Shown: positions 29,306-40,785 of the stretch, piece by piece
Position numbering within the stretch: the first letter of the stretch is position 1
Layout of the letters: each line of letters starts with the position of its first letter
Origin: Bacteroidales bacterium
GTDB lineage: Bacteria; Bacteroidota; Bacteroidia; Bacteroidales; VadinHA17
Direction: 5' to 3'
Assembly (NCBI GenBank): GCA_029932855.1
Contig: JAOZPG010000004.1
Coordinates: 114,253-157,891, forward strand
Length of the DNA: 43,639 nt
The notes under the pieces: generated by a model
The model's input: only the letters and a program-made list of their open reading frames with translations
What the model was told of the DNA's origin: nothing
The model's database searches: none
Translations under genes and position numbers: made by a program

Positions 29306-30385
29306 ATGAAAGAATCACATTCTATAAAACTTATTCTGGAAGACGGTACAGAATATATTGGAAAATCATTTGGAGCCCGGGAATCAATATCGGGTGAGGT
29401 GGTTTTTAATACTGCAATGACCGGTTATCCTGAAAGTCTTACAGATCCAAGCTACAAGGGGCAGATACTTGTTCTGACCTATCCGCTGGTTGGGAATTAC
29501 GGAACACCGGTCTGGGATAAGGAGAACCATATGCTTAAATATTATGAATCTGACAAGATTCATATATCCGGACTGATAGTATCAGATTATTCTTTTCAGT
29601 ACAGTCACTGGAATGCCAGGGGCAGTCTTGCCGACTGGCTTGAGAAGAATTCTGTGCCCGGAATATATGGTATTGATACCAGGGCACTTACTAAAAAACT
29701 CAGGGAAAGTGGAACCATGTTGGGTAAGATCATTTATCAGGAAGAAAATATTGAATGGTATGATCCTAATAAAGATAATCTGGTAGCCATGGTAAGTACA
29801 GCTAAGAGAGAGGTTTATGGCAAGGGAAAAAATAAGATATTGCTTGTGGATTGTGGTGTGAAAAATAATATTGTCAGGTACTTACTGGAGAAAGATACAA
29901 CTGTAATTCGTGTGCCATGGGATCATGATATCTCTAAAGAGGATTATGACGGCTTGTTTATTTCCAATGGTCCCGGCGATCCAAGGATGTGTGATATAAC
30001 TATTAAGAACCTTAAATCAGCACTGGATGGGACAAAACCTGTTTTTGGGATATGCCTGGGCAACCAACTCCTGGCCCTGGCTTCCGGTGCTGAGACATAT
30101 AAGCTGAAGTACGGACACAGAAGTCATAACCAGCCGGTTCTGAAAGTGGGTACAAAAAGGGCATATATTACTTCACAGAATCATGGGTTTGCCGTGGATA
30201 ATGAAAGTTTGGGCAAGGACTGGGAACCACTGTTTATAAATATTAATGATGGCACTAACGAGGGAATGAAGCATAAGACAAAGCCGGTATTTTCTACACA
30301 ATTTCACCCCGAAGCCTCTGGGGGGCCAACAGATACGGCCTTTTTGTTTGATGAGTTCGTGGAAATGATAGAAGAACAGAAATAA
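29306..30385 (+). CDS. carA: Carbamoyl-phosphate synthase small subunit
   Basis: A 359-residue glutamine amidotransferase subunit feeding ammonia to CarB for carbamoyl phosphate used in arginine and pyrimidine synthesis. The N-terminal CPSase_sm domain shows SGEVVFNTAMTGYPESLTDPSYKGQI. The class I amidotransferase domain has the nucleophile in FGICLGNQLLALASG, then LKYGHRSHNQPV and FSTQFHPEASGGPTDT with the His-Glu pair. It starts 5 bp after the PatB-type gene and is not adjacent to carB, which lies 7 kb to the right. No ARG box is visible upstream. Confidence 0.97.
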   Translation: MKESHSIKLILEDGTEYIGKSFGARESISGEVVFNTAMTGYPESLTDPSYKGQILVLTYPLVGNYGTPVWDKENHMLKYYESDKIHISGLIVSDYSFQYSHWNARGSLADWLEKNSVPGIYGIDTRALTKKLRESGTMLGKIIYQEENIEWYDPNKDNLVAMVSTAKREVYGKGKNKILLVDCGVKNNIVRYLLEKDTTVIRVPWDHDISKEDYDGLFISNGPGDPRMCDITIKNLKSALDGTKPVFGICLGNQLLALASGAETYKLKYGHRSHNQPVLKVGTKRAYITSQNHGFAVDNESLGKDWEPLFININDGTNEGMKHKTKPVFSTQFHPEASGGPTDTAFLFDEFVEMIEEQK

Positions 30386-30464: not shown

Positions 30465-31715
30465 TCATAAATCCCTTACCTGGCCATTCCCATAAATAAT
30501 GTATTTTGTTGTGGTAAGCTCATTCAGACCCATGGGCCCCCTGGCATGGAGCTTCTGGGTGCTTATGCCTATTTCGGCACCGTAACCGAATTCATAACCG
30601 TCAGTAAAGCGGGTAGAGGCATTTACATAAACAGCAGCTGCATCGATCTCGTTTAAAAAGCGCTGAGCATGTGAGTAATCCTCTGTAATAATTGCTTCAG
30701 AGTGTTTTGTTCCGTATTTGCCAATATGATCCATTGCTTCATCGAGTGAGTTAACAATCTTAACAGAAATAATGAGATCGAGATATTCTGTTGCCCAGTC
30801 TTCTTCAGTAGCCAGTTTTGCCCGGGGATAATATTTAAGAACCCTTTTGTCTCCCCTTATCTCTACATTCTTTGCGGCCAGATTTTTACATATTTCTGGA
30901 ATATATTTTTCTGCAAGTGATGAATGAATAAGTAGTGATTCTGCTGCATTACATACTCCAGGTCGTTGAGTCTTTGCATTTATAATTATTTTATTTGCCA
31001 TCCCGGTATGGGCTTTGCTGTCAACATAGATATGGCAATTGCCAACCCCGGTCTCAATAACCGGAACAGTACTGTTTTCAACCACTGTTTTAATAAGTCC
31101 CGCCCCGCCGCGGGGAATGAGCAGGTCGAGATAATCATTCAGTTTCATCAAGGCCATGGCACTTTCACGCTTGGTGTTTTCCACCAGCTGTACTGCTTCA
31201 ACAGGAAAGCCGGAATCAGCAAGAGCCTGCTGAAGAACTGTTTGTATTGCCAGATTTGAGTTTATGGCTTCTTTGCCTCCCCTGAGGATTGATGCATTAC
31301 CGGTTTTTAAACATAAGCCGAATGCATCTGCAGTAACATTGGGTCTTGATTCATATATTATCCCTATAACTCCTATCGGCACCCTCTGTTTTCCTATCAT
31401 TAGTCCGTTTGGTCTTTTATCCATATTCATCACTTCCCCTACGGGATCTTTCAGGGCTGCAATTTCCTGCAACCCCACGGCCATTCCTTTTATCCTGCTT
31501 TTATCAAGACTCAGCCTGTCAAGTAAAGCCCCTTTAATACCATTTTCCTCTGCCTTTAGCAGGTCTTTTTTATTTGCAGCCAGAATATCTTCCTGCTTTT
31601 CTTCAAGCAGTCCGGCAGCCCTTATTAATACTTCATTTTTACTGACTGAAGAAGTTTTCATCAGGAAGTTTGCCGCTTCTTTTGCCTTCACGCCTTTTTT
31701 TATCAGTTCTTCCAT
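30465..31715 (-). CDS. proA: Gamma-glutamyl phosphate reductase
   Basis: A 416-residue NADPH-dependent member of the aldehyde dehydrogenase superfamily converting glutamyl-5-phosphate to glutamate semialdehyde in proline synthesis. The catalytic Cys is in [46 protein letters not shown] and the C-terminal [22 protein letters not shown] are family signatures. It is the last gene of the argR-side operon, 88 bp after proB, a spacing that allows a separate promoter although I see none. Confidence 0.97.
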
Positions 31716-31803: not shown

Positions 31804-32604
31804 TTAATTATTGTCTGCTTCAAAATAGGTTCCCAGCTCTTTACCTTTTATCAGATCATAAATTATTTCCGGGTCTTTGCCGTTTGCAAGAATAACATCT
31901 ATTCCTGCTTCAAAGCATTTTTTAATTGCATCTATCTTGGTTGTCATTCCCCCTGTTCCAAATGAATTTTCCGAGCCACCGGCACTTTTCTCCAGTTCTG
32001 GCGATATATGAGTGACGCTTGGAATTAGCCTGGCATCTTTTACGCGCCTGGGGTCGGCAGAATAGAGTCCGTCAATATCGGAAAGCATTATCAGAAGGTC
32101 TGCCTCAATAAGCTCAGCTACGCTTGCCGAAAGAACATCATTATTTCCAAATTCTATACCTCGTGTTGATACTGTATCATTTTCATTAATAATGGCAATG
32201 ATATTCATTTTCAGCAGGGCATTGAGAGTGTTATATGCATTAATGCGACGCATAGGGTTGGTACAACCGTCTTTTGTTAACAATACCTGTGCAACAAGCT
32301 GCCCATGTTGCATAAAGAATTTCTGATATATCTTTAGCAATTCAGCCTGACCTATGGCTGCCAGTGCCTGTTTTTCAGCCAGATTGCCGGGTTTCTTTTT
32401 TGCACCGGTAATCCCTCCTCCCACAGCTACAGCTCCTGAGCTTACCAATATCAGATTCTTTCCTTCATTCCTGATCTTTGTAAGTACTGAGGCAAGTAAT
32501 TCCATTCTTTGAAGGTTAATTCTGCCATTGGAGAATGAAAGTGAGGAGCTGCCAACCTTAACGACTATTCTTTTCTTATTCGAAAGTTTATTTTCTCTAT
32601 CCAT
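31804..32604 (-). CDS. proB: Glutamate 5-kinase
   Basis: A 266-residue amino-acid kinase phosphorylating glutamate, the committed step of proline synthesis. The kinase motifs are complete: VVKVGSSSL (residues 14-22), LVSSGAVAVG (54-63), IINENDTVS (138-146), FGNNDVLSA (152-160), LSDIDGLYSADPR (174-186) and GTGGMTTKIDA (216-226). It lacks the C-terminal PUA domain of the 367-residue E. coli enzyme, as is common in many bacteria. It begins 3 bp after the degenerate paralogue upstream. Confidence 0.95.
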   Translation of the reverse strand: MDRENKLSNKKRIVVKVGSSSLSFSNGRINLQRMELLASVLTKIRNEGKNLILVSSGAVAVGGGITGAKKKPGNLAEKQALAAIGQAELLKIYQKFFMQHGQLVAQVLLTKDGCTNPMRRINAYNTLNALLKMNIIAIINENDTVSTRGIEFGNNDVLSASVAELIEADLLIMLSDIDGLYSADPRRVKDARLIPSVTHISPELEKSAGGSENSFGTGGMTTKIDAIKKCFEAGIDVILANGKDPEIIYDLIKGKELGTYFEADNN

Positions 32605-32607
32605 AAC

Positions 32608-33276
32608 TTAGGGCTGGAATGATATTTTACTGTAATCTTCCGGGAATGCTTCAGATAAATATTTGTTTCCGGAGATTTTGTTTTTAACATCTGAAATAGT
32701 CTCAATCAGTCCGGTCTCATCAATTAGCATGTTCTTAAGCTTCCTGCCCCTGAATATTAACTGAAATTTTCGCTTCTCTTCAGATTTTGCCAGTATGAGT
32801 CCGGCACCTACGAGTTCGGCAACATTAAGCACCATGTAATAATTATCATCAAGGTCAATATCGTCGGTAGATACAGAGTCGTTTTCATTGATTATGGGAA
32901 TGATTTCTTTTGATAGCAAAATTTTTAGTGTGTTCTTGGCGTTCAGCTTCCTGTCGGGATTGCTTATTACGTCGTTAGTGAGAAGCACCTGGGCAGCCAT
33001 CTGGTTGAAAATATCGAAATAGTAACGGTAATATTTCATCAGTTCTACCTGTCCCACCGCTGAAACAGCCTGCTTCTGTATCCTGCTCACGGGCATTTGT
33101 TCAAATCCCAGTTTCGCTGCCCCGAGGAAAATCGCCCCGGAAGAAACCAGCAGTATGTCAATGCCGCTGTTCCTCAGATTAGTGAGCACCAGTGTCAGCC
33201 TTTCCATCTTTTTCTTATCGAATGTGCCGTCTGTACTTAATAAATAATTTATTTCAAGCTTTACTACTATTTTCAT
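32608..33276 (-). CDS. Degenerate glutamate 5-kinase paralogue (probable pseudokinase)
   Basis: A 222-residue uninterrupted frame clearly homologous to the adjacent ProB over residues 1-160. It keeps LLVSSGAIFLG (42-52), KQAVSAVGQVELMKYY (68-83), AAQVLLTNDVISNPDR (94-109) and the glutamate-side motif IINENDSVS (128-136). The nucleotide side is gone: the opening glycine/serine loop is KLEINYLL instead of KVGSSSL, the NND motif reads LDDNYYMVL, the S-D-x-x-G-L-Y-x-x-D-P-R block is replaced by LAKSEEKRKFQL, and the GTGGM.TK lysine segment is absent. It overlaps argH by 4 bp (ATGA) and ends 3 bp before proB, so it is translationally coupled. It is probably inactive as a kinase but maintained; a regulatory or structural partner of ProB is a reasonable inference. 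Confidence 0.85.
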   Translation of the reverse strand: MKIVVKLEINYLLSTDGTFDKKKMERLTLVLTNLRNSGIDILLVSSGAIFLGAAKLGFEQMPVSRIQKQAVSAVGQVELMKYYRYYFDIFNQMAAQVLLTNDVISNPDRKLNAKNTLKILLSKEIIPIINENDSVSTDDIDLDDNYYMVLNVAELVGAGLILAKSEEKRKFQLIFRGRKLKNMLIDETGLIETISDVKNKISGNKYLSEAFPEDYSKISFQP

Positions 33277-34616
33277 GATTGAGAGGAATTCAATAATGCA
33301 CTAAGTGCCTCCTGTGTGGTATTAAAATTGAATTCCAGAACAATTTTGTCCATTTTCCAAATTATCTCCTTAGTGCACAGATTCCCGATGCTTCCGCTAT
33401 GCTTATGCTCAATGTTTTTATCGGGATGGAACTCTCCGTTGCTTATTGAACCTGCTACCTTGTGGTATGCTTCCCTGAAAGGGATGCCTCCCTGTACTTT
33501 TTTATTAATCTCCTCTACGCTGAAAATATATTTATAGCGTTCATCTTCCAGTATATTCTCATTCAGAGTAATATTTTCCAGTACAAGTATCATCATGTTG
33601 AGGCAAGAAAGAAGTTTTGGAAATGCTGGCAGGTATGCTTCTTTTACCTCCTGATAATCACGATGATAGCCCATTGGGAGGTTAGTGCTTATTGCAGAGA
33701 TCTCGTTAGGGAGGGATTGTAGCCTGTTACACCTGGCTCTTATAAGCTCAAGAACATCGGGATTCTTTTTATGTGGCATTATGCTTGATCCGGTAGTAAA
33801 TTCTTCTGCAAGACTGATAAAATTGAAGTTCTGACTCATAAACAATGTCATATCCATTGCCAGTTTAGAAAGACTTGAGGCAATGGATGACAAGGCAAAG
33901 GCTATTACTTTCTCTGTTTTTCCTCTTCCCATCTGTGAGTAAATGGAATTATACACAAGAGTATCAAAGCCCAGTAATTCAGTAGTTCTTTTCCTGTTTA
34001 TGGCGAATGATGATCCATATCCTGCTGCAGAGCCTAAAGGGTTCTGGTTTATTAGCCTGTATGCTGATGAAAGAATTATCATGTCATCTGTAAGGCTTTC
34101 TGCAAAGGCTCCGAAAAAAAGGCCGAAGGATGAAGGCATGGCTGCCTGCAGGTGAGTATAACCTGGCATAAGTACTTCCTTATGTTCTTCACTTAATGCT
34201 ATGAGTTTATTAAACAAGATCTGTACTTTTTCGAATATAAAAGTAAGCTGTTGCCTTGAAAAAAGCTTCAGGTCGAGCAAAACCTGGTCGTTCCTCGATC
34301 TGGCGGTATGAACTTTTCCGGCTGTATCACCAAGCCTGTCTGTAAGTATCTTTTCTACCTGTGAATGTATATCCTCTACTCCTTCTTCAATCTTAAGTTC
34401 TCCTTTTTCGGCTTTATAATACAAATCTTTTAATTCATGGTATAAAGCTTTGGTCTCGGTCTCAGTAAGGAACCCTGTTTCCTTAAGCATTATTACATGA
34501 GCCATAGATCCCAGTATATCATGGGGGGCAAGTAGCAGGTCGAGCTGGTGATCATTTCCTATTGTAAAGTTCTCTATGGCCCGGTTTAGCTTACTGTTTT
34601 TATTCCATAGTTTCAT
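33273..34616 (-). CDS. argH: Argininosuccinate lyase
   Basis: A 447-residue fumarase-superfamily lyase splitting argininosuccinate to arginine and fumarate. Signatures are VHTARSRNDQVLLDLKLF (HxxRSRND), LMPGYTHLQAAMPSSFG and the flexible catalytic loop GSSIMPHKKNPDVLELIRAR. The N-terminal MKLWNKNSKLNRAIENFT is typical although it lacks the GGRF motif in strict form. It begins 33 bp after proC and overlaps the degenerate kinase gene. Confidence 0.97.
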   Translation of the reverse strand: MKLWNKNSKLNRAIENFTIGNDHQLDLLLAPHDILGSMAHVIMLKETGFLTETETKALYHELKDLYYKAEKGELKIEEGVEDIHSQVEKILTDRLGDTAGKVHTARSRNDQVLLDLKLFSRQQLTFIFEKVQILFNKLIALSEEHKEVLMPGYTHLQAAMPSSFGLFFGAFAESLTDDMIILSSAYRLINQNPLGSAAGYGSSFAINRKRTTELLGFDTLVYNSIYSQMGRGKTEKVIAFALSSIASSLSKLAMDMTLFMSQNFNFISLAEEFTTGSSIMPHKKNPDVLELIRARCNRLQSLPNEISAISTNLPMGYHRDYQEVKEAYLPAFPKLLSCLNMMILVLENITLNENILEDERYKYIFSVEEINKKVQGGIPFREAYHKVAGSISNGEFHPDKNIEHKHSGSIGNLCTKEIIWKMDKIVLEFNFNTTQEALSALLNSSQS

Positions 34617-34649: not shown

Positions 34650-35459
34650 TTACTTATTATTAAGTAAATTATTTATTTCATTATAGGAGGTCATTATCCC
34701 CTTTATCAATGCAGAGTTCAATCCCCTGTGATCCATTTCATTAAGTCCGGCAATGGTTATTCCCCTGGGGGTTGTAACCTTATCGATCTCTTTCTCAGGG
34801 TGATTCCCCGAATCAATTAGTAGTGTGGCAGCGCCTTTTGATGTTTGGGATGCTATTAGCTGTGCCTGTTCGGCATGGAAGCCTATTTGTATCCCTCCTT
34901 GTGAGATTGCTCTTATAGTCCTTAAAAAGAATGCAATGCCACAGGAGCCAAGTACAGTAGCTGCAGGGATCAGTTCATCATCTATGATCAGTGTTTTCCC
35001 AAGCTCATTGAAGACAGACTGAACATCCTTAAGTTCTTCCCTGTTATTGCTTTCCGCAGACAAGAGAGTCATTGACTCTTTGACTGATATCGCCAGGTTG
35101 GGCATCATCCTCATAACGGCTATCTCGTTTCCCACAATATTGCGTATTTCTGCTATACTTACAGAAGGAACAAGCGAAGCCAGAATTTGAGTTTCCGGAT
35201 TAATATAGTTGCCAATTTCTTCAAGCAAAGCTTTTACCTGCATGGGCCTTACTGCCAAAATAATAAGATCTGATTTTGTAACGGCATAAGGATTATCATC
35301 ACTAATTTCTATTCCTTTTTCTGCCAGATCACTTATTAAGGACAGCTTTCTCCTGGTAACTATTATTGAAGCTGATGAAAACTGCCTGGTCTGAACCAAA
35401 CCCAGGGCAATGGCTTTTCCAATATTCCCCCCTCCGATTATTGCAATTTTTTTTATCAT
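34650..35459 (-). CDS. proC: Pyrroline-5-carboxylate reductase
   Basis: A 269-residue NAD(P)H-dependent reductase performing the last step of proline synthesis. The Rossmann motif IAIIGGGNIGKAIALGL opens the protein, ILAVRPMQVKALLEEI follows, and the C-terminal helical domain has the signature TTPRGITIAGLNEMDHRGLNSALIKGI (P5CR consensus GGTT/TTPGGTTxxGL..). Note the R in place of the usual G at TTPRG, which is seen in Bacteroidota homologues too. It lies between argG and argH. Confidence 0.96.
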   Translation of the reverse strand: MIKKIAIIGGGNIGKAIALGLVQTRQFSSASIIVTRRKLSLISDLAEKGIEISDDNPYAVTKSDLIILAVRPMQVKALLEEIGNYINPETQILASLVPSVSIAEIRNIVGNEIAVMRMMPNLAISVKESMTLLSAESNNREELKDVQSVFNELGKTLIIDDELIPAATVLGSCGIAFFLRTIRAISQGGIQIGFHAEQAQLIASQTSKGAATLLIDSGNHPEKEIDKVTTPRGITIAGLNEMDHRGLNSALIKGIMTSYNEINNLLNNK

Positions 35460-35549: not shown

Positions 35550-36800
35550 CTAAACACTATATATGTTGTTTTTATTTTTCTTATTTATTATGGCATTATG
35601 TGCCATAAGTCTTATTGAATTTATTTTTATAAATCCGAGACTGTCTTTTTGGTCGAAGCCTCCTTCAATATCCATGCTCGACAGTTCCTGGTTATAAAGC
35701 GAACTTGGAGACTCTCTTCCTTCAATCATGATATTTCCTTTATAAAGTGACATGTAAACGATGCCGTCTATTACTTCCTGGCTTTTATTCATAGCTGCCA
35801 TGAGGAAATCCATTTCGGGACTGAACCAAAAGCCATTATAAACAAGCTCAGAGAATTTTGGAGAAAGCATGTTCCTTAGTTTCATTACCTCTCTGTCCAT
35901 GGCTATCCCTTCAATATCCTGATGGGCAAGCAGGAGGATGGTTGCTCCAGGTGTTTCATATACGCCCCTTGATTTTATCCCGATAAACCTGTTTTCAACC
36001 ATGTCCAGCAGGCCAATGCCATTCTCGCCGCCCAGCTTGTTCAGGTAAACAAAAAGTTCAAGGGCTTCGGTAAGTTCAACTTTTTCTTCCTTGTTAACTA
36101 CTTTAACAGGAATACCATCCTTAAAGTGGATTTGTATCCTGGTTTCCTTATCGGGGGCATCCATAGGCAATACCATTTTTGTATAGATTTCCTTTTCGGG
36201 AGTGTATGCCGGGTCTTCCAGTATTCCTGCTTCGTGACTTATATGCATAAGGTTATCATCTTCACTATATGGTTTTTTAAGAGATGCTTTAACCGGGATA
36301 TTTTTAGCCTCTGCATAGTTCAGCATATCAGTTCTTCCTTTGAATTGGTCGAGGAATTCCTGATCTTTCCATGGAGAATAAACTTCTATGTCGGGATTAA
36401 GGGCATAATATGCAAGTTCAAACCTTACCTGATCGTTTCCTTTTCCGGTTGAACCGTGGGAAACGATATTGGCTCCTTCCTGTTTTGCGATTTCTATCTG
36501 TTTTTTTGAGATAAGTGGACGGGCAATGGCAGTGCCAAGCAGATACCTGTTTTCATAAATGGCATTTGCTTTTATTGCCGGGAAAATATAATCTGTAACA
36601 AGCTCTTTTTTAAGATCCAGTATAATAACTTTTGAAGCACCGATTTTAAGAGCTTTCTTTTCAACTTCTTTAAAATCGTCATCCTGTCCCACATCTGCCA
36701 CATAGGCAATTACTTCATAATCTTTTTCAATGAGCCATTTAAGTATGACTGATGTGTCAAGTCCCCCACTGTAGGCAAGTACTATTTTTTGTTTTTTCAT
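35550..36800 (-). CDS. argG: Argininosuccinate synthase
   Basis: A 416-residue ATP-pyrophosphatase-type ligase joining citrulline and aspartate. The P-loop-like motif [17 protein letters not shown] and [17 protein letters not shown] are diagnostic; [24 protein letters not shown] is near the C-terminus. Length is normal. It is separated from argR by 139 bp and from proC by 90 bp. I do not find a clear ARG box directly upstream, so it may depend on read-through from the argR promoter. Confidence 0.97.
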
Positions 36801-36939: not shown

Positions 36940-37422
36940 TCAGCGCCTTATACGATCTTTTAGTTCAGGGAAAATTAGAATTAGCCTGTTTCGGAGATCA
37001 ATTTCACTTACTCCGTCCCTGGGAATAAGCAGTATTGTATCATCACCGGCAATGGTGCCGGCTATTTCATATGCATTTGCCATATCTATTGTCATTGCCA
37101 GACTGCTTGCATAGGCGGGGATGGTTTTCATAATAGCCATGTTCTGAGCGAAATCAATACTTACGAAGCCATTATGCACATATGATGTTGAACTGTCTGA
37201 GATCTTTTTAGCCGCTTTGGCTGTAGGAATTGAATAATAATATGCGCCCTCATTATTAGCTATTTTTCCTACTTTAAGAGCTTTTAGATCCCTGCTGAGA
37301 GTAGCTTGTGTGCAGTTAAATCCTTTATCATTTATTTTCTTCAGTAATTCATTCTGGCTCTTAATTTGCTGGGTGTTAAGTATCTGGCTGATTATGACTA
37401 AGCGGTTTGTTCGAGTCTTCAT
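36940..37422 (-). CDS. argR: Arginine repressor ArgR
   Basis: A 160-residue regulator with an N-terminal winged-helix domain (residues 1-75, recognition region CTQATLSRDLKAL) and a C-terminal hexamerisation/arginine-binding domain containing AGTIAGDDTILLIPR, equivalent to the GTIAGDDT motif whose aspartates bind the arginine in the E. coli protein. Length is typical (150-160). It is transcribed divergently from carB, with two ARG boxes in the shared spacer, one covering its own -7 element. It is the first gene of the operon running to proA. Confidence 0.96.
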   Translation of the reverse strand: MKTRTNRLVIISQILNTQQIKSQNELLKKINDKGFNCTQATLSRDLKALKVGKIANNEGAYYYSIPTAKAAKKISDSSTSYVHNGFVSIDFAQNMAIMKTIPAYASSLAMTIDMANAYEIAGTIAGDDTILLIPRDGVSEIDLRNRLILIFPELKDRIRR

Positions 37423-37560: not shown

Positions 37561-40500
37561 ATGGATAAAACAATAAAGAAGGTCCTGGTATTAGGATCAG
37601 GTGCGTTGAAAATTGGTGAAGCCGGTGAATTTGATTATTCAGGTTCACAGGCAATGAAGGCATTACGTGAGGAAGGAATACAGACTGTACTTATTAATCC
37701 TAATATTGCAACAGTACAAACCTCAGAGAAGATAGCAGATAAGATATATTTTCTTCCTGTAACACCTTATTTTGTTGAAAGGGTGATTGTAAAGGAAAAG
37801 CCAGATGGTGTTTTGCTTTCTTTTGGGGGGCAGACTGCGCTGAACTGTGGTACTGAATTATACAGGAATGGAATTTTTGAGAAATATAATGTTCGTGTTC
37901 TGGGAACACCTGTAAGGGCAATAATGGATACTGAAGACAGGGAGCTTTTTGTAGATAAGCTTAATGAGATTGATGTAAAGACTCCAAGAAGTATTGCCGT
38001 TACAAGTGTTAAGGATGCACTCAAAGCTGCAGAGAAGCTTGCTTATCCGATTATTATCAGGGCGGCTTATACTTTGGGGGGACAGGGTAGTGGTTTTTGC
38101 AGTAACCCTGAAGAACTTGATGCACTTGCAAATAAAGCTTTTACCTATACCACCCAGATACTTGTTGAGGAATCATTAAAGGGATGGAAGGAGGTTGAAT
38201 ATGAAGTTGTCAGGGATGTTCATGACAACTGTATTACAGTTTGTAATATGGAGAATTTCGATCCTCTTGGAATACATACAGGGGAAAGCATAGTTGTTGC
38301 ACCTTCACAGACACTTACCAATAGTGAGTATCACAAACTCAGGGAGCTTTCCTTAAGAATAATAAGACATATAGGTGTTGTTGGTGAGTGTAATGTTCAA
38401 TATGCCCTGGATCCGGAATCGGAAGATTACAGGGTGATTGAGGTTAATGCCAGGTTATCACGGTCAAGTGCTCTGGCATCCAAAGCTACCGGCTATCCTC
38501 TTGCCTTTGTTGCTGCAAAATTAGCTCTGGGTTATGGCTTATATGAATTAAAGAACTCTGTTACCCAGACCACTACTGCATGTTTCGAACCTGCCCTTGA
38601 TTATATAGTTTGTAAGATACCCAGGTGGGACCTTAATAAGTTCCAGGGAGTATCGCATAGTATTGGAAGCAGCATGAAAAGTGTGGGAGAGGTGATGTCT
38701 ATTGGCCGTAGCTTTGAAGAGGCTATTCAGAAAGGACTCAGAATGATAGGACAGGGCATGCATGGTTTTGTCGGAAATCGTGACCTGAGTTTTGATAATC
38801 TTGATAAAGAATTATCGGAGCCCACGGATATGCGGATATTCGTAATAGCAGATGCCATGGAGAAAGGTTATTCTGTTGATAAGATACATGACCTTACGAA
38901 GATAGATAAGTGGTTTCTTTATAAGCTTATGAATATTGTTTCCCTTAAGGATGAACTGAAGCAGTTTAACAGTCTGAAAGAGCTGCCTGCCGAAAAACTC
39001 AGAGAGGCAAAGATATTTGGATACACTGATTTTCAGCTTGCCCGGTATGTATTGAAACCAGGTGTGCTTGAGATGGAAAAAGGATTGCTTGAGATCAGGA
39101 AACACAGGAAAAAGTTAGGAATTGTTCCTGTGGTAAAACAGATAGATACCCTTGCAGCAGAGTACCCGGCTCAAACGAATTATCTTTATCTTACCTATAG
39201 TGGTACGGATCATGATATACAGTTTACGAATAATAATAAATCGGTTATTGTGCTTGGATCGGGTGCATACAGGATAGGTAGCAGCGTGGAGTTTGACTGG
39301 TGTACTGTAAATGCCCTGGATACGGTAAAAGCAGAGGGTTATAATTCCATAATGATAAATTATAATCCCGAGACTGTTAGTACTGATTATGATATCTGCG
39401 ACCGTCTTTATTTTGATGAGCTCTCATTTGAGAGGGTTTTAGATATATATGACCTGGAGCAGCCTGAAGGGCTTATAGTGTCTGTGGGAGGACAGATCCC
39501 TAATAACCTGGCACTTAGGCTACATGGTCAGGATGTGACCATACTTGGTACATCTCCCGAATCTATTGATAATGCAGAGAACAGGCATAAGTTCTCAATG
39601 ATGCTTGATAAGATAGGCGTTGATCAGCCGGGATGGAAAGAATTATCAAGCATTCAGGATATACATGATTTTGTTGAAAGGATAGGCTTCCCTGTGCTGA
39701 TAAGGCCATCATATGTTCTGTCGGGAGCAGCTATGAACGTGGTCTCAAATGCTAAGGAACTTGACCAGTTTCTTGAGCTTGCAGCAAATGTTTCAAAGCA
39801 GTATCCGGTTGTGGTATCTGAATTTATTGAGCAGGCCAAGGAGATTGAAATTGATGCAGTGGCAATGGAGGGAGAAATGATTGCCTATGCTATTTCAGAG
39901 CATGTTGAATTTGCAGGTGTTCATTCGGGTGATGCAACCATAGTCTTCCCGCCCCAGAAAATTTATTTTGAGACAGTTAAACGAATTAAAAAGATCAGCC
40001 GCCAGGTAGCCAGGGAATTAAAGATAAGTGGTCCTTTTAACATGCAGCTCCTTGCCAAGGATAATGATATTAAAGTAATTGAATGCAATCTAAGGGCTTC
40101 GCGCAGCATGCCATTTGTATCAAAGGTTCTTAAAACAAACCTTATTGAGCTGGCCACAAAGATTATGCTTGGAAAGGATGTTGAAAAGCCTGGCAAATCT
40201 ATTTTCGATCTTGATTATGTTGGCGTTAAAGCACCACAATTTTCTTTTTCACGACTTCAGAAAGCAGATCCTGTGCTTGGAGTTGATATGTCATCCACAG
40301 GGGAAGTTGGCTGCATAGGGGAGGACTTTTATGAAGCCATATTGAAATCCATGTTGTCAGTAGGTTATAATATTCCGGCAAAGAATATCTTATTATCAAC
40401 AGGTCCTGCAAGATCTAAGGTGGAGCTTATAAATTCGGCCAGGGCACTGGTAGAAAAAGGATATAATTTATTTGCCACCAGGGGCACACATGATTTCCTC

Positions 40501-40785
40501 AGGCTTAATAATATTGACAGTACAACATTAACCTGGCCCGATGAGAAAACCGGTCCTAACACATTGGAATATATAAAGGAAAAGAAAATAGACCTGGTAA
40601 TAAATATTCCAAAGGACTTGTCGCAGGAAGAACTGGACAATGATTATATGATTCGGAGGGCAGCAATAGATTACAATATTCCATTAATCACAAATGCAAG
40701 GCTGGCAAGTGCATTTATTCTTGCATTCTGTAAGCTGGATCTTGATGATATTGAGATAAAGTGCTGGGGTGAATATAAAGTGTAA
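37561..40785 (+). CDS. carB: Carbamoyl-phosphate synthase large subunit
   Basis: A 1074-residue synthetase with two homologous ATP-grasp halves and a C-terminal allosteric domain. The first half begins KVLVLGSGALKIGEAGEFDYSG and contains VIEVNARLSRSSALASKATGYPLA; the second begins VIVLGSGAYRIGSSVEFDWC and contains KVIECNLRASRSMPFVSK. The last 140 residues (from about 935) form the MGS-like domain, which binds UMP or ornithine in E. coli. It works with CarA, encoded 7 kb away on the same strand. Divergent from argR. The stop TAA shares its final A with the start of the glycosyltransferase gene. Confidence 0.98.
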   Translation: MDKTIKKVLVLGSGALKIGEAGEFDYSGSQAMKALREEGIQTVLINPNIATVQTSEKIADKIYFLPVTPYFVERVIVKEKPDGVLLSFGGQTALNCGTELYRNGIFEKYNVRVLGTPVRAIMDTEDRELFVDKLNEIDVKTPRSIAVTSVKDALKAAEKLAYPIIIRAAYTLGGQGSGFCSNPEELDALANKAFTYTTQILVEESLKGWKEVEYEVVRDVHDNCITVCNMENFDPLGIHTGESIVVAPSQTLTNSEYHKLRELSLRIIRHIGVVGECNVQYALDPESEDYRVIEVNARLSRSSALASKATGYPLAFVAAKLALGYGLYELKNSVTQTTTACFEPALDYIVCKIPRWDLNKFQGVSHSIGSSMKSVGEVMSIGRSFEEAIQKGLRMIGQGMHGFVGNRDLSFDNLDKELSEPTDMRIFVIADAMEKGYSVDKIHDLTKIDKWFLYKLMNIVSLKDELKQFNSLKELPAEKLREAKIFGYTDFQLARYVLKPGVLEMEKGLLEIRKHRKKLGIVPVVKQIDTLAAEYPAQTNYLYLTYSGTDHDIQFTNNNKSVIVLGSGAYRIGSSVEFDWCTVNALDTVKAEGYNSIMINYNPETVSTDYDICDRLYFDELSFERVLDIYDLEQPEGLIVSVGGQIPNNLALRLHGQDVTILGTSPESIDNAENRHKFSMMLDKIGVDQPGWKELSSIQDIHDFVERIGFPVLIRPSYVLSGAAMNVVSNAKELDQFLELAANVSKQYPVVVSEFIEQAKEIEIDAVAMEGEMIAYAISEHVEFAGVHSGDATIVFPPQKIYFETVKRIKKISRQVARELKISGPFNMQLLAKDNDIKVIECNLRASRSMPFVSKVLKTNLIELATKIMLGKDVEKPGKSIFDLDYVGVKAPQFSFSRLQKADPVLGVDMSSTGEVGCIGEDFYEAILKSMLSVGYNIPAKNILLSTGPARSKVELINSARALVEKGYNLFATRGTHDFLRLNNIDSTTLTWPDEKTGPNTLEYIKEKKIDLVINIPKDLSQEELDNDYMIRRAAIDYNIPLITNARLASAFILAFCKLDLDDIEIKCWGEYKV

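Follow-up and report, generated by a model that had tools for sequence, protein, structure and literature searches.

A conserved, apparently non-catalytic paralogue of glutamate 5-kinase encoded beside proB in Bacteroidales

Introduction

Proline synthesis begins with glutamate 5-kinase (ProB, EC 2.7.2.11), a step under feedback control. The enzyme is described as a homo-oligomer that forms tetramers, and proline feedback is reported both for the PUA-less glutamate 5-kinase (G5K) of Leishmania and for the E. coli enzyme without its PUA domain (PMC6099280). A glutamate-kinase step may serve more than one product, as in the bifunctional protein reported to act in both proline and ornithine synthesis, of which a gut splice form is ornithine-inhibited (PMC11061531, PMC8963878). 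That system is a single protein with no separate dead-kinase subunit, unlike the arrangement considered here.

Control by a non-catalytic companion has been described for other enzymes. GMPPA is reported to be a non-catalytic protein that binds product and acts as an allosteric feedback inhibitor of its catalytic paralogue GMPPB, the GDP-mannose pyrophosphorylase (PMC11228364). HisZ is likewise reported to mediate end-product inhibition of short-form HisG (PMC9734150); it is a paralogue of tRNA synthetases and not of HisG. Within the amino-acid-kinase family, the NCBIfam model AspKin_pair (TIGR02078) is named for a putative Pyrococcus aspartate kinase subunit.

Here we describe a short paralogue of ProB encoded directly in front of proB. 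Its nearest characterised relatives are PUA-less ProBs such as Campylobacter jejuni 2AKO and Leishmania donovani G5K, with which it shares homology over residues 1-162, the predicted fold, and the pocket and relay residues. It differs from them in having no ATP-side segment and no K217, in the replacement of D150 by Tyr and of G12 by Glu, and in a ProB score below the model cut-off. GMPPA/GMPPB offers the nearest working model, since in both cases a paralogue has lost the catalysis of its enzyme (here as judged by sequence). The ProB paralogue also co-occurs with its catalytic counterpart (29/29 genomes, adjacent in 23/29). The enzyme family and pathway are different, and the partnership is reported there and proposed here. 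HisZ resembles it as a separate non-catalytic regulator of a first-step biosynthetic enzyme, the role that we suggest below, but not in descent, because our protein matches Pfam AA_kinase, is nested among ProBs and shares one ancestor with its enzyme. AspKin_pair, which we compared by its NCBIfam name, is similar in being an amino-acid-kinase family designated as the subunit of a pair, and differs in that the enzyme is aspartate kinase. In searches of one open-access library we came across no description of a dead ProB paralogue.

Results

The paralogue lies in a run of arginine and proline genes

The window, by which we mean the whole 43,639-nucleotide stretch of Bacteroidales DNA analysed here, carries on its minus strand, in order of reading, an argR-like gene, argG, proC, argH, the short paralogue, proB and proA (Table 1). 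The paralogue reading frame begins with ATG and runs for 222 codons with no internal stop. It overlaps argH by 4 bp, and 3 bp separate its stop codon from the proB start, in the same frame. A first-pass annotation of the sequence had described an uninterrupted ProB relative coupled in this way to argH and to a complete proB, and the ORF coordinates agree.

Table 1. Features of the window discussed in the text
Feature	Position	Strand	Description
Short ProB paralogue	32608..33276	-	222 aa; AA-kinase domain without the ATP-side segment; predicted non-catalytic from its residues
NEND motif	32878..32889	-	Paralogue residues 130-133, equivalent to E. coli N134-D137; 28/28 complete copies
Tyr146 codon	32839..32841	-	Position of catalytic D150; Tyr in 28/28 complete copies
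Glu8 codon	33253..33255	-	Position of E. coli G12 in the ATP-side Gly loop; Glu in 27/29
proB	31804..32604	-	266 aa glutamate 5-kinase, catalytic residues present; presumed catalytic partner
proA	30465..31715	-	Glutamate-5-semialdehyde dehydrogenase
argH	33273..34616	-	Argininosuccinate lyase
proC	34650..35459	-	Pyrroline-5-carboxylate reductase; 194.2 bits, slightly below the NCBIfam cut-off of 196.75
argG	35550..36800	-	Argininosuccinate synthase
argR-like arginine repressor	36940..37422	-	TIGR01529, E 8e-36, 123.2 bits, below the cut-off of 130.45
carB	37561..40785	+	Carbamoyl-phosphate synthase large subunit; divergent from the argR-like gene
carA	29306..30385	+	Carbamoyl-phosphate synthase small subunit; convergent with proA

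The amino-acid side is kept and the phosphoryl-transfer side is lost

The NCBIfam ProB model TIGR01027 matches the paralogue over residues 1-162 only (E 5.5e-45; 154.1 bits against a cut-off of 186), and the neighbouring ProB scores 302.4 bits, above the same cut-off. Pfam AA_kinase (PF00696) covers residues 2-163 of the paralogue at 53.8 bits (gathering score 24.9), and it is the sole Pfam domain of the window ProB, which has no PUA domain. NCBIfam holds no model specific to the paralogue: all 28 members searched matched proB and P5CS alone at E <= 1e-5.

Our alignment compares E. coli ProB, whose numbering is used throughout, with 29 paralogues, of which one is truncated, and 45 ProBs, of which two are. 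In published accounts N134 and N149 position glutamate, Q80 and Q100 connect the two active centres, and K10, K217 and D150 are catalytic (PMC11061531); a predicted proline pocket beside the substrate site is described as including N134 (printed as Asn34) and D137 (PMC6099280). The window paralogue keeps SSGA, NEND and DN, equivalent to S50-G51-A52, N134-D137 and D148-N149. The pocket residues N134, E135, N136, D137 and N149 are present in 28/28 complete paralogues and the relay glutamines Q80 and Q100 in 29/29. S50 is found in 22/29, the window copy among them, and is Ala in the other seven, which may therefore have lost glutamate binding.

The opposite side of the active centre is altered throughout the family. 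In the window protein the K-L-G-T/S loop reads K-L-E-I and DND reads DNY; D150 is Tyr in every complete paralogue and G12 is Glu in 27/29. The S-D-x-x-G-L-Y-x-x-D-P-R motif is lost, its aligned residues being variable except for an aromatic at Y175, and the K217 segment is missing from 29/29, one copy having Arg aligned at the position itself. K10 is a lysine in 12/29 paralogues and another residue in 17/29. ProBs from the paralogue-bearing genomes retain K10 (30/30), K217 (28/28) and D150 (27/28). The first-pass annotation had stated that the glutamate-pocket motifs are kept, which holds for the window protein, and that all ATP-side motifs are altered or missing; this stands for the Gly loop, NND, the DPR motif and the GTGGM/K217 segment, with the nuance that the K10-aligned lysine persists in the window protein.

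A column scan returned 26 positions at which the same residue is at least 90% conserved in paralogues and ProBs. Only four set the paralogue apart: Glu replaces G12, Asp replaces E143, Tyr replaces D150, and the tail carries a Phe (F211 in the window protein). Along the long helix 65-89, which we take to be the amino-acid-kinase dimer helix, the E. coli positions Q73, 74, G79, Q80, L83, 87 and F91 are common to paralogue and ProB at 90% or above. As far as the alignment reveals, the protein has kept its amino-acid side and the relay that joins the active centres and has lost the phosphoryl-transfer side, a pattern of invariant replacement and not of random decay.

The ProBs also vary. Near the glutamate site, eight ProBs of paralogue-bearing genomes have Gly for E143 and eight have Asn for D148, variants seen in 0/15 ProBs from genomes without the paralogue; they concern the window ProB (31804-32604) and the ProBs of family f1. 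The ProB that is paired with the paralogue in G063 (L003:6673-7470, plus strand; the same gene in L113) has Tyr for D150 and an altered D-P-R motif. Another PUA-less ProB occurs in the same bin, at L114:2905-3756. The paired ProB of this genome may be dying, or the bin may be mixed.

The predicted fold is that of a glutamate kinase

AlphaFold2, given an alignment of the 28 paralogues, modelled the window paralogue with a pLDDT of 91.3 and a pTM of 0.89. The closest solved structures found by Foldseek are glutamate kinases, with Z of 18-22 for the best seven entries. Superposition on 4q1t_D gave Z 21.8 and rmsd 3.1 over 189 aligned residues; for 2ako_A the values were Z 20.4 and rmsd 2.9 over 187 residues. 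Because the latter match spans chain residues 2-250, it fits loss of an internal ATP-side segment better than simple truncation. A fused paralogue-ProB chain, read through the stop codon and modelled with nine paired rows, reached a pLDDT of 74.8 and a pTM of 0.75, at most a weak hint of an interface.

The paralogue is intact, selected and of single origin

No stop or frameshift interrupts any of the 28 complete paralogue copies; an apparent internal TAA in the copy of G238 proved to be its terminal stop (L122:5371-5373). By the counting method, dN/dS in the four closest paralogue pairs is 0.077, 0.057, 0.031 and 0.033; the corresponding ProB pairs give 0.093, 0.039, 0.025 and 0.064. The first 165 residues of the paralogue are the more constrained part (0.049, 0.036, 0.012 and 0.014), with the tail evolving faster (0.150, 0.126, 0.084 and 0.076) and reaching up to 0.47 between G125 and G127. 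Among nine other pairs only G004-G063 had a non-saturated dS, giving 0.115 for the paralogue and 0.143 for the ProB fragment; in the remainder dS exceeded 2 or was undefined.

In a tree of the first 165 columns the 28 complete paralogues form one clade (bootstrap/SH-aLRT 100/96) within the PUA-less ProBs. A quick tree places both the paralogue and the ProB of G125 and G127 (family f1) with family f43, which suggests that this pair of genes (L115:3661-5190, L116:133-1678) was transferred together.

Together, the conserved intact copies, the invariant residues, the low dN/dS, the single clade and the confident predicted fold argue for a maintained non-catalytic paralogue and not a relic. The sequence evidence strongly supports a conserved family that is non-catalytic and under purifying selection. 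Intact homologues and dN/dS exclude a pseudogene or sequencing artefact. The first-pass annotation had named interrupted relatives, or a dN/dS near 1, as grounds for dropping its proposal of an intact, coupled, kinase-dead protein. The former were not seen among the complete copies, and dN/dS was 0.03-0.08 in the closest pairs, similar to that of ProB; the proposal is thus strongly supported by sequence, and recurrence of the same variant in 29 genomes goes beyond chance.

The paralogue travels with ProB

With protein and profile searches we detected the paralogue in 29 genomes, which belong to seven families of one order. We sampled family, order, class and phylum by separate draws, the profile searches staying within the window's own phylum. 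Of the 117 genomes in the family draw 12 carried it, as did 20 of the 393 in the order draw. The class draw (395 genomes, E <= 1e-50) returned a match in the window's own genome only, and the phylum draw (395 genomes, E <= 1e-40) gave 15 matches, comprising the own genome and 14 single matches whose frames of 377-419 aa we take to be full-length ProB and not the paralogue. A single scan of genome contigs yielded one relative. G063 appears identical to the public MAG record JAUVHQ010000033 (L003).

ProB accompanies the paralogue in 29/29 genomes. In 27 it is complete, and its open frame of 265-316 codons leaves no space for a PUA domain; in G004 and G496 the contig ends after the start of the gene. 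The first-pass annotation had suggested looking for the pair in related genomes, and in 23 of the 29 the paralogue directly precedes proB. We count G012 among these, its paralogue being split over two contigs with the tail preceding proB. One pair is broken by contig ends (G432, each gene at an end), and in all five genomes of family f5 the two genes lie on different contigs; the neighbours of two of these five unlinked copies gave no functional hint. Fifteen further genomes, from families f8, f15 and f38 and genus g12 of f1, encode a PUA-less ProB without the paralogue.

Counting the window, the paralogue directly follows argH in 19 genomes and stands in the order paralogue-proB-proA in 17. 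It is still beside proB in genomes in which argH is no neighbour (G063, G125, G243): the pair lies after proC in G063, and in G125 it is accompanied by proA with no argH within 10 kb. No proA was found beside the pair in G243 or G233. Across 13 genomes, evolutionary distances of the paralogue correlated with those of ProB (partial r 0.60), argH (0.48) and proA (0.38), a non-specific signal that slightly favours ProB over argH.

A possible route to arginine by way of the proline branch

We compared the 44 genomes with a PUA-less ProB (29 with the paralogue, 15 without) with 14 control genomes; nine of the 44 have a completeness below 90% or a contamination above 5%. Acetylglutamate kinase (argB) was over cut-off in one of the 44 (G432), with weak sub-threshold matches in 42 more, and in 14/14 controls. 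Acetylglutamyl-phosphate reductase (argC) was over cut-off in the same single genome, G432, and in 13/14 controls. Ornithine aminotransferase was over cut-off in 44/44 and in 1/14 controls, and ornithine carbamoyltransferase in 40/44 and 13/14. Given that 43 of the 44 have no argB or argC over cut-off and all have ornithine aminotransferase, ProB may supply the proline and the arginine pathway alike. The simplest reading, with argG and argH next to proB and proA, is that arginine would be made from glutamate via ProB, ProA, ornithine aminotransferase and ornithine carbamoyltransferase.

Two observations bear on how this is to be read. In the order draw argB occurs in 119 of 393 genomes, made up of one (G432) of the 33 listed in the paralogue search versus 118 of the other 360, a comparison of related genomes that are not independent; since 242 of those 360 also have no argB, its absence is no special mark of the paralogue-bearing genomes. 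The enzymes may also serve degradation. Arginine-deiminase matches occur in 20/44 genomes, none over cut-off; the window's genome encodes a carbamate kinase followed directly by ornithine carbamoyltransferase (L162:3143-5177; G000, contig C16). A review assigns prokaryotic ornithine aminotransferase to arginine degradation (PMC5372011).

Genomes with and without the paralogue equally lack argB and argC, and we rejected, as a complete explanation, the idea that the paralogue is part of an acetyl-free arginine route per se. Neither the PUA-less type of ProB nor this arginine route requires it, because the 15 genomes without the paralogue have no argB or argC either. Ten loci from genomes without the paralogue (L117, L118, L142, L144, L145, L147, L149, L150, L153, L154) carry an argG-like gene 24-30% identical to the window argG, and the two examined closely (L144, L145) have a gene for an ArgE/DapE-like deacylase between proC and argH. 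The divergent gene and the deacylase suggest another variant of the arginine route in these relatives.

Discussion

These data allow us to propose that the paralogue acts as a pseudokinase partner subunit of ProB, setting its activity or its feedback sensitivity according to amino-acid occupancy. We regard this reading as somewhat probable; complex formation, the identity of the ligand and the sign of the effect are all inferred. The protein would have arisen by duplication of the order's PUA-less ProB, followed by loss of the ATP half, and its contact with ProB would most likely be made by the conserved dimer helix of the amino-acid kinases. Its retained amino-acid pocket could hold glutamate or proline, with ornithine or arginine as possibilities; for copies that keep S50, proline or glutamate is our first guess and a second end product the bolder one. 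The glutamine relay, which in E. coli joins both active centres of the dimer, may pass occupancy on to ProB, so that the paralogue would set how active the catalytic subunit is or how strongly it responds to feedback. By analogy, the combination of pocket and relay would fit the way in which GMPPA, a product-binding dead paralogue, restrains GMPPB, and the similar role of HisZ for HisG.

Given that a PUA-less glutamate 5-kinase is already proline-regulated, ProB need not have a separate sensor, and the 15 relatives that manage without the paralogue also mark it as an added layer, not one that every PUA-less ProB needs. In most of these bacteria ProB and ProA would supply ornithine and arginine besides proline, in which case extra control at the ProB step would be useful. 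This leads to a more specific and doubtful proposal, a heteromeric glutamate 5-kinase answering to two end products, in which the paralogue adds a second signal such as ornithine or arginine to proline feedback and ornithine and arginine are made via ProB, ProA and ornithine aminotransferase, not by the acetylated route. It is weakened because missing argB is common in the order. The idea in the first-pass annotation that the mixed arginine-proline operon would suit a sensor gains some weight, most of the genomes having ornithine aminotransferase and neither argB nor argC. Its further proposal, a non-catalytic partner that would sense glutamate, proline or arginine and tune ProB, stays a hypothesis, and 15 genomes with this type of ProB manage without such a partner. 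A composite active site built from both subunits is possible; the paralogue, having no K217 segment, could contribute only glutamate-side residues to it.

A purely structural subunit, in which an evolutionary ratchet has made the dead copy obligatory for assembly or stability of the complex with no sensing of ligand, would also account for the shared dimer-helix residues and for a single duplication among PUA-less ProBs. We consider it rather unlikely, as N134, D137 and N149 match the relay in invariance, which goes beyond the needs of assembly alone, and related PUA-less ProBs do without such a partner. Absence of the f5 paralogue from the contig of proB in 5/5 genomes and the high distance correlation with argH, which the paralogue directly follows in so many genomes, count against a partnership with ProB and would suit a stand-alone amino-acid binder or homodimer acting on another target, such as arginine enzymes or a repressor. 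That ProB is nevertheless always present, and that the gene remains beside proB where argH is not adjacent, makes such a protein distinctly unlikely.

The recurrent paralogue-proB-proA order, and a pocket that could hold the product, are what one would expect of a scaffold or carrier handing labile glutamyl-5-phosphate from ProB to ProA. We find this very improbable: Tyr in place of D150 and the lost phosphate-side residues would disfavour a phosphorylated ligand, the distance correlation with proA is the weaker one, and G243 and G233 have no proA found beside the pair. As for a functionless duplicate in decay, the protein is shorter than ProB, has lost catalytic residues and has a faster-evolving tail; 28 complete intact copies in seven families, the low dN/dS of the closest pairs, and invariant substitutions in a confidently predicted fold refute this reading.

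Regulatory dead paralogues are already known, and one for glutamate 5-kinase would be new if the regulatory subunit proposed here is confirmed. A conserved pseudokinase partner of ProB, if that is what the protein is, would offer a natural system in which to study how a dead paralogue comes to regulate, with the near relatives that have no paralogue as built-in evolutionary controls. More broadly, the genome context points to bacteria that possibly make arginine through the proline branch.
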